The translations under genes and the position numbers were made by a program. From Nitrospira sp. (GTDB lineage: Bacteria; Nitrospirota; Nitrospiria; Nitrospirales; Nitrospiraceae): a stretch of DNA of 64,000 bases. How positions within the stretch are numbered: position 1 is the first letter of the stretch; each line of letters opens with the position of its first letter. The notes beneath the pieces were generated by a model. It ran no database searches and was not told the origin of the DNA. It worked only from the letters and a program-made list of their open reading frames with translations. The DNA lies in contig JACOEK010000001.1 of NCBI GenBank assembly GCA_024998595.1, positions 372,001-436,000 of the forward strand, written 5' to 3'. Of this stretch, positions 45,931 to 50,355 are shown one piece after another.

Positions 45931-46641
45931 TTACTGTCCGTCGTCCTTCTTCAGTCGATCGAGGAGTTCCACCAGATCGGCGGTGAATCTCTGTGCCCGG
46001 TCCAGGCCGCCGACGCGGAGGATGCGTGCGCCGACAACTTCCTCCAGCGCATCATTGACCGTTCGGGAGTGATTCAGAACGGTCATGATCTGTTCAGAGC
46101 GGCCGGGGGCTTGATCAAGAATCGCCGCCACGAATTCCGGATCAACCGAGGCCAGCGCCGATTGTTTCGCAAAACGTTGGACTTGAGCATGGAGCGTGGC
46201 GGTCTGTTTCCAGGAATCGTTGAGCGCGTTCGCCGTATCGCGCAGGCCGCAGAAGTCTTCTTCAAATTGATCCCACACCGCCTTCTCCAGTCCTTGCACA
46301 TCCGCCATGTAAATCAGGCTCGTCAGGTAGGCTGCCGCATACGCAGCCTCTCCTTTTTTGTTGGTCAGATTCCGGAAAGAAGCCAGGGCAAAGCGGTGTT
46401 TGGTCTCTTGTATGTGGAGGGACTTAAAACTCTGATGGAGTTCAGCGCGCGCCTGCTCGAGATATTTAATGCGGGCTTCGGTTTCCTTTTGGAACAGATC
46501 AATGTTGGTTTGTGCCGCATCGATCTTCGTGCCTTCCATCTGAATGAGGTCACGCACCGAACGGCTGTGAATAGAATGGCAGCCGGTGGCCGTGAGCAAC
46601 AGCATGGCAAGGGACAGTAGCGTCATGCTTCGTCTGACCAT
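45931..46641 (-). CDS. helical lipoprotein
   Basis: 236-residue lipoprotein, lipobox LLTATGC near residues 14-20. The mature part is a long helical, charged protein (about 30-90 and 140-230) with no family I recognise. ATG 46641 is used because AAGGAG lies just before it and it opens the signal peptide; the frame to 46680 adds 13 unlikely residues. Third of five genes transcribed together from about 47.3 kb. Confidence 0.65.
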   Translation of the reverse strand: MVRRSMTLLSLAMLLLTATGCHSIHSRSVRDLIQMEGTKIDAAQTNIDLFQKETEARIKYLEQARAELHQSFKSLHIQETKHRFALASFRNLTNKKGEAAYAAAYLTSLIYMADVQGLEKAVWDQFEEDFCGLRDTANALNDSWKQTATLHAQVQRFAKQSALASVDPEFVAAILDQAPGRSEQIMTVLNHSRTVNDALEEVVGARILRVGGLDRAQRFTADLVELLDRLKKDDGQ

Positions 46642-46676
46642 GGAAGGCTCCTTCCGCGGAACAACGTGACGGGCGG

Positions 46677-47309
46677 TCATCGGCGCACCGCGCGCAGCGC
46701 ATCGGCCAGCGATTGCGTCTCGCTCCGGTTCATGGTGACGTCAATATCTAGGTATTGTTTGATTAGGCCGTTGATTCTTCGAAGCGCGTCGACATTGTTC
46801 CGGTACCGGTCGAATGCCGTGAGGTCGACGGCTTGAGGGATCTTTGCCCCGGCGGCGACATGTTTTTCCACTCGCGCGATCAAATCGGGCAGTTGTTGGA
46901 CAAGGTTGCTCATTTCCCCTGAGCCGGCGGCAAACAGGGGTTGGCCGGTCGGTCCTTTTCGCTCAGGGAGAGACTTCAGTCGAATCGTATTGATCAAGGC
47001 CAGCACATCGGGTCCGAGGACGGCGGCATCATCTTCCGCCATCGCGGCATCCGGCACATCCGCCAAGCGAGGATTGGTGGTTGCCCATTGCAAGGCCAAA
47101 TCCAGCTTGAGGCGGGTTTGAACAAATCGAGACCATTGCAGATGGCGGGTGGTGACATTACTCACGAGCTCACGATACTGCTGCATGAGCTGTTCATTGT
47201 CTGCGTAGGCTTGGTCCTTGGCTGCGAGCGCCTGTTTGATTTCAGGCGGTGTGGAGCAGGCGGCGAGCGAGGCCAAGACCAGCGCGCCGGCGATGCGTAA
47301 CATCCTCAT
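46677..47309 (-). CDS. lipoprotein, first gene of envelope operon
   Basis: 210-residue lipoprotein: lipobox LASLAAC near residue 18, then a helical periplasmic domain. Not recognised as a named family. Start ATG 47309 follows AGGAGG. Heads a co-directional set: this gene, the lipoproteins at 45931 and 44608, the helical protein at 45398 and the amine-oxidase-like secreted protein. A palindromic TACCCAGGGTA lies 60 bases upstream. Confidence 0.7.
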   Translation of the reverse strand: MRMLRIAGALVLASLAACSTPPEIKQALAAKDQAYADNEQLMQQYRELVSNVTTRHLQWSRFVQTRLKLDLALQWATTNPRLADVPDAAMAEDDAAVLGPDVLALINTIRLKSLPERKGPTGQPLFAAGSGEMSNLVQQLPDLIARVEKHVAAGAKIPQAVDLTAFDRYRNNVDALRRINGLIKQYLDIDVTMNRSETQSLADALRAVRR

Positions 47310-49485: not shown

Positions 49486-50355
49486 TTACCGCAGCGTGCG
49501 CACGAACGACGGACTGAGGCTGCCCCTCGCAACCTCAGCGACCGGTCCCTTCATCGTGAGGTTGAAATCGGAGGCAACCTCGATGTTGAGCGTTCCACCC
49601 GGCATCTTCACCGTGACCGGACCTTTGACCAGTCCGAGCTTCACCGCGGCGCTGGCTGCCGCGCAGGAGGAGGAGCCGGAGGCCTGGGTTTCGCCGGCGC
49701 CGCGTTCCCAGATGAGGATAAAGATCTCTTTCGGACCGGTGGGCACGGCGAGTTGAACGTTGGTGCGCTTCGGAAACAGGGGATGGTTTTCCAGGGCTGG
49801 TCCTAATGTGAGGAGCTCTTCACGCGTCCAGGTTTGACCGGCTTTTTTGAAGACCACGCAGTGGGGATTCCCGACGCTGACTCCGGTAAATTGCAGTGAC
49901 CGCCCTGCGGCCTGGATGGGAGACCCGATCAATTCATCGACGGACAGCGTGCAGGGAAGGGCGGTCGGTTGAAAGGTCGCTTGGCCCATCTCCACCGTGG
50001 CGGCCGCAGCATCTCCGTGGCGATCGATATGCAGAGTGATCGAGACGAGACCACCCTTCGTTTCTACCGTGAACGCGCGCTTTTTGGTTTTGCCGGTGGC
50101 ATGCAGGTAGCGAGCGAAAATGCGAAGCCCGTTGCCGGATTTCTCGGCTTCGCTTCCATCTGGATTGTAAATGCGGAGACCGAAATCGGCCTTCTTGGAA
50201 GGAACCAGCGCGAGGATGCCGTCGCTGCCGAGCCCCCAATGGCGGTCGCAAATGCCGCGAATTTTTCCGGGGGTGAGCGTGAAGCTGAGCTCTTTGGGAT
50301 CCATGACCACATAGTCGTTCCCGAGTCCATGCCCGCGAAAAAACCCGTTCTTCAT
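49486..50355 (-). CDS. dapF: DapF-like diaminopimelate epimerase with Cys-to-Ser sites
   Basis: 289-residue PLP-independent epimerase fold, full length and collinear with DapF. DapF uses two cysteines as acid and base to interconvert LL- and meso-diaminopimelate for lysine and peptidoglycan. Here both are serine: Ser73 in AEKSGNGLRIF (normally MCGNG; codon 50137-50139) and Ser226 in TQASGSSSCAAA (normally ACGTGACA; codon 49678-49680). Position 73 equals the classical numbering. Start ATG 50355 follows AAGGAGAG. Either a member with another substrate or mechanism, or a weak epimerase. Confidence 0.75.
   Translation of the reverse strand: MKNGFFRGHGLGNDYVVMDPKELSFTLTPGKIRGICDRHWGLGSDGILALVPSKKADFGLRIYNPDGSEAEKSGNGLRIFARYLHATGKTKKRAFTVETKGGLVSITLHIDRHGDAAAATVEMGQATFQPTALPCTLSVDELIGSPIQAAGRSLQFTGVSVGNPHCVVFKKAGQTWTREELLTLGPALENHPLFPKRTNVQLAVPTGPKEIFILIWERGAGETQASGSSSCAAASAAVKLGLVKGPVTVKMPGGTLNIEVASDFNLTMKGPVAEVARGSLSPSFVRTLR

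Follow-up and report, generated by a model that had tools for sequence, protein, structure and literature searches.

The window, i.e. the whole stretch of 64,000 nucleotides analysed here, carries on its minus strand an intact reading frame of 289 amino acids, which starts with ATG at 50355 and runs to 49486. On the basis of its translation, profile matches and an AlphaFold2 model we assign it as a dapF homologue with serine in place of both catalytic cysteines (Ser/Ser). The protein (P0001; the window's own genome is G000) matched the DapF model TIGR00652 over residues 5-280 with 227.8 bits (cut-off 114.65) and the Pfam profile PF01678 with 183.4 bits (cut-off 34.7). Scores against the NCBIfam models for the CntK histidine racemase (12 bits, cut-off 300) and for bifunc_DapF, the bifunctional DapF/glutamate racemase (49 bits, cut-off 350), were far too low, and PF05544 (Pro_racemase) gave no match to the protein in Pfam at E-values up to 10. 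Within the Nitrospiraceae (family f1) the gene comes after a VOC/glyoxalase-like gene and before uvrC. Downstream of uvrC in the window there are two adjoining lipoprotein-like genes (45931-47309; 249 and 210 aa) without a Pfam match.

Alignment with the E. coli DapF places Ser73 (codon TCC, 50137..50139, minus strand; context EKSGNGLR) at the position of Cys73 and Ser226 (codon TCC, 49678..49680, minus strand; context ASGSSSCA) at that of Cys217. This confirms what an earlier note on this DNA had claimed, i.e. that the two acid/base cysteines are replaced, and adds the strand. The PROSITE-type DAP-epimerase signature, as quoted in PMC8225329, is matched at every position except the cysteine, which is serine in the window protein. 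In the AlphaFold2 model (mean pLDDT 96.2) the two serines immediately precede helices 74-86 and 227-239 at their N-terminal ends, and the catalytic cysteines of DapF occupy the same helix-start places (PMC12039745). Among structures the model matched solved DapFs best, with Z 36.1 and 2.1 A over 272 residues; structures of the proline racemase superfamily gave Z 24-27, a likeness that is structural alone. The window protein is thus predicted, from a confident model, to have the DapF two-domain fold.

For comparison we took 164 different DapF sequences out of the loci fetched, together with that of E. coli; in this set the residue pairs at the two positions were Ser/Ser in 104, Cys/Cys in 55 and Ser/Cys in six. 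Residues N11, N64, N157, N190, E208 and R209 (E. coli numbering), which hold DAP in solved DapF structures (PMC12039745), as well as H159, are unchanged in all 104 Ser/Ser sequences, and all DAP contacts, including those to the distal carboxylate, are retained in the clade. In the other Nitrospirota DapF group, including all six Ser/Cys sequences, Asn157 is replaced by Val, and hence at this position the Ser/Ser clade is nearer to the studied enzymes. Moreover, Lys72 (codon 50140..50142, minus strand, as derived from the coordinates of Ser73) is present in 104 of 104 Ser/Ser sequences, whereas the Cys-containing DapFs compared have Met, Phe, Leu or Gln there and never Lys. It is the sole charged residue immediately beside a catalytic position among the clade-specific changes, which also comprise Tyr15, Ser44, Gly59-Leu60, Ser228-Ser229 and other sites. 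The description "otherwise normal DapF" in the earlier note has to be qualified for these clade-diagnostic sites. Judged by its sequence, the protein is a variant inside the DapF family and not a standard member, since the defining cysteine pair is absent; that the family models name it DapF despite the absence of the mechanism-defining residues is an annotation issue. In members of family f19, the second active-site motif has Tyr or Trp where E. coli has Glu213.

Both serines were found in 80 of the 80 named closest-relative loci (identity about 81-96%; almost all carry the label Nitrospira); the relatives surveyed are Nitrospirota, and one contig scan across genomes gave close relatives alone. 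The maximum-likelihood tree puts the Ser/Ser sequences on one side of a branch with a support of 100/100, i.e. in all bootstrap trees, and their sources are families f1 and f2 of the window genome's order and, from other parts of the phylum, families f19 and f16. Long branches were flagged by the tree program (L156 from f16, and E. coli) and the deep placement of f16 is unsure. The Ser/Cys pair arose separately in this tree, within the operonic DapF group. Sequencing or assembly error, or chance, was excluded as a source of the pair by the 80 named relatives, the 104 distinct Ser/Ser sequences and the complete genomes described below. Purifying selection on the gene is strong, with a dN/dS of approximately 0.06 (Nei-Gojobori, on a sample; rough, with dS nearly saturated). 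Codon 73 is AGC in N. moscoviensis and TCN in the other named Nitrospira loci, and since the step between TCN and AGC needs two changes, serine itself appears to be selected at this position.

Some loci deviate from the single-copy arrangement. On L074 (5820-8034; contig shared with G195:C22 and L173) a tandem-duplicated segment of VOC gene and dapF carries two Ser/Ser DapF copies, identical at 269 of 289 residues, and the intervening VOC copy matches in part. Two unlinked Ser/Ser DapF genes are present in one f19 genome (G028; L174, L175). A locus labelled Candidatus Latescibacterota (L111) carries a Nitrospira-like Ser/Ser DapF (81% identical), which is the sole DapF of that genome; a mistaken label or bin is therefore probable. 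Spread by phage or plasmid was considered and rejected: matches were <60% identical to P0001 (best listed about 38%), and a scan of viral contigs with Ser/Ser patterns revealed no relative.

We detected no second dapF in the window's own genome (99.4% complete), where the single DapF was matched as two halves, and Ca. Nitrospira defluvii (FP929003) and N. moscoviensis (CP011801), whose genomes are complete, have one DapF each, of the Ser/Ser type. These data speak against a divergent paralogue residing beside a canonical dapF, which the earlier note had considered. To cover the order, 161 genomes were searched twice; the query was the Ser/Ser protein in one search and an operonic DapF in the other. 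The Ser/Ser type alone was present in 136 genomes (classed by their similarity to P0001; the residues themselves were read in the fetched sequences only), the operonic type alone in 18, neither in seven and both in none. The seven genomes without a DapF match are most simply explained as assembly gaps; in two of these, G070 and G185, the lysA-dapA cluster likewise lacks dapF. Outside the order, one genome of the distant family f16 (G006) has a Ser/Ser DapF outside the operon, after an apparent ribulose-phosphate epimerase gene, together with an operonic Cys/Cys DapF. That G006 keeps both types suggests that another role is, or once was, possible for a Ser/Ser protein; in G006 it may have another job, perhaps the ancestral one.

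The operon context follows the same division. In relatives with an operonic gene the cluster reads argH-lysA-dapF-dapA-dapB, followed by dapL in G273, and lysA-dapF-dapA-dapB was seen in G163, G141, G060, G236, G272, G273, G006 and G117. The window genome has its own argH-lysA-dapA-dapB cluster (L194) without dapF, with 21 bases separating the lysA match from the dapA match, and the lysA-dapA gap lacks dapF in every other Ser/Ser-only genome read (Nitrospira, f1, f2 and f19). In f19 (L217, L220) this gap contains a small reading frame that includes a conserved hydrophobic stretch, ISAIPVIFFLITF, and perhaps encodes a membrane protein. Some genera of family f1 (G141, G163, G060 and G236) retain an operonic DapF, of the Ser73/Cys type. 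Operonic Ser73/Cys sequences include those from L172 (G141), L177 (G060), L176 (G163), L178 (G236) and L181 (G161), i.e. from some Nitrospiraceae and a class relative (f7); the first catalytic cysteine alone is replaced and the lysA-dapF arrangement is intact. On their residues, these are natural half-way cases. In the Ser/Ser-only genomes read, an unlinked Ser/Ser DapF remains where the operonic dapF has been lost.

The pathway around the enzyme is complete in the window's own genome. LysA, DapA and DapB score above the NCBIfam cut-offs, DapL matched NF006756 with 644 (cut-off 507) and TIGR03540 with 618 (593), and the DAP-adding MurE matched NF001126 with 591 (373) and has the DNPR motif, which is linked with DAP specificity. 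That DapL is missing, as the plant-type model would have it (185 bits vs 364.7), was rejected because the other DapL type (NF006756) is present. LysA requires meso-DAP. For the DAP dehydrogenase Ddh, which bypasses DapF, there was no match in G000 and three short weak matches in 60 family genomes. With DapA, DapB, DapL, LysA and a DAP-type MurE present and Ddh absent, the genome needs a DAP epimerase. A proline racemase as stand-in epimerase was rejected: the own-genome match is below the cut-off and belongs to a PhzF-family protein, and similar weak Pro_racemase matches are also present in operonic-type genomes. A true proline racemase is present in two f2 genomes. N. moscoviensis, an autotroph, grows on nitrite and CO2 in mineral medium (PMC8407350) and therefore needs its own synthesis of lysine and DAP.

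We propose, with a probability of roughly three in four, that the Ser/Ser protein is the organism's DAP epimerase, having displaced the cysteine DapF lost from the lysine operon. The earlier note left the choice between another role and a serine-based variant, and the evidence favours the variant: the DAP pathway is complete without Ddh, the operonic dapF is lost, the two types exclude each other and the DAP-binding residues are kept. On these grounds we infer DAP epimerase activity for the Ser/Ser clade. The enzyme would convert LL-DAP from DapL to meso-DAP and thereby supply LysA for lysine and MurE for peptidoglycan. Ser73 and Ser226 would act as a two-sided acid/base pair, mirroring Cys73/Cys217, with one hydroxyl(ate) removing the alpha-proton and the other giving a proton back on the opposite face; Lys72 might lower the pKa of Ser73 or relay its proton. 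It is also probable, though we hold this less firmly than the displacement itself, that a naturally evolved cofactor-independent amino-acid epimerase with two serine hydroxyls, possibly helped by Lys72, has taken the place of the cysteine DapF in most of the order and cannot be inactivated through oxidation of catalytic cysteines. The benefit could be redox stability, in contrast to the Corynebacterium DapF, which is H2O2-sensitive and is switched off by a disulfide between its two catalytic cysteines (PMC5296763).

The chemistry presents a difficulty for such a mechanism. Thiols are favoured over hydroxyls, being more acidic and more easily desolvated (PMC8142540), and as the earlier note stated, changes of this kind strongly reduce epimerisation in studied enzymes: single Cys-to-Ser mutants of PddB, and reportedly of the M. 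tuberculosis DapF, have <0.1% activity left (PMC8225329), and the activity of HisR Cys-to-Ser mutants is greatly reduced (PMC11602996). The objection is softened by a natural Ser/Cys enzyme, the 4-hydroxyproline 2-epimerase B9JQV3, for which activity has been shown (PMC4113996), and by the low flux that a slow-growing autotroph needs, for which a low serine turnover might be bearable. By our own estimate, based on general figures for doubling time and biomass composition, a Nitrospira cell could manage with 0.03-0.3 turnovers per second. The idea of an ordinary variant, also raised in the earlier note, stands halfway, since serine is found in all Nitrospira relatives and proven activity in none.

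Among the alternatives, the one that survives best, although we consider it unlikely, is that the Ser/Ser protein performs another task, e.g. as a lyase/dehydratase, a racemase of another amino acid or a regulator, and that an unrecognised non-homologous enzyme epimerises DAP. The almost inactive Cys-to-Ser mutants (PMC8225329, PMC11602996), the dehydratase activity of a Ser/Thr member of the proline racemase superfamily (PMC4113996) and the retention of both DapF genes in family f16 agree with it. It fits poorly with the retention of every DAP contact, the distal carboxylate included, and with a distribution that complements that of the operonic dapF, which is gone in every Ser/Ser-only genome read; as regards a substitute, the own genome has no full Pro_racemase match, only the weak PhzF-family one. 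That the protein is still a cysteine enzyme, in which one of the lost catalytic cysteines is stood in for by Cys36 or by Cys231, which lies five residues beyond Ser226, is very improbable. Cys36 is present in 104 of 104 and Cys231 in 101 of 104 Ser/Ser sequences, but other DapFs have cysteine there as well (54 of 61 and 21 of 61, respectively), so these are not new substitutes; furthermore, f16 members lack Cys231, which in the AlphaFold2 model lies within helix 227-239 and not at its start. We give even less weight to the Ser/Ser DapF being a degenerate remnant in a Nitrospira with LL-DAP in its wall and lysine or meso-DAP obtained otherwise since, while some bacteria are generally known to have LL-DAP peptidoglycan, the intact gene is present in nearly all genomes listed and under strong purifying selection, LysA with its need for meso-DAP is present and Ddh absent, and N. 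moscoviensis is autotrophic on nitrite mineral medium (PMC8407350).

The Ser/Ser clade spans the larger part of an order of nitrifiers of global importance, and it tests the need for a thiol pair in removing a proton with a pKa of about 29. DapF, a textbook case of a two-cysteine enzyme, is also an antibacterial target, and aziridine inhibitors act on those cysteines. Our reading of the Ser/Ser protein as the DAP epimerase predicts that Nitrospira DapF would resist both cysteine-reactive inhibitors and a disulfide redox switch of the Corynebacterium type (PMC5296763). Our literature search, the coverage of which is incomplete, did not turn up a naturally occurring Ser/Ser DapF, nor do the papers found describe any amino-acid epimerase of the Ser/Ser kind.

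Compared with known systems, the window protein is a whole-length homologue of the DapFs of P. aeruginosa (8qzy), E. coli (4ijz/6d13) and Anabaena (9mro), with 36-38% identity and a VIA-align Z of about 35. It shares their DAP-binding residues and probably their place in the pathway, but differs in having serine for both acid/base cysteines, Lys72 before Ser73, SGSSSC instead of CGTGAC and a gene outside the lysine operon. The operonic DapF of other Nitrospirota belongs to the same family and would have the same job; it is, however, only about 26-33% identical, lies well apart in the tree and is Cys/Cys in most lineages and Ser73/Cys in some Nitrospiraceae and f7 (G141, G163, G060, G236 and G161). 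With B9JQV3 and B9K4G4 of the proline racemase superfamily, the latter a Ser/Thr 3-hydroxyproline dehydratase (PMC4113996), it shares the overall fold and a natural change from cysteine to serine at the first site, whereas their substrates are of the proline type, B9JQV3 keeps one cysteine and the cysteine-free B9K4G4 is a dehydratase. Finally, the C73S and C217S mutants of the H. influenzae DapF (2q9h, 2q9j) have serine at the same positions and a closely similar fold (Z about 34), but these are single man-made replacements in a protein that is not adapted to serine.
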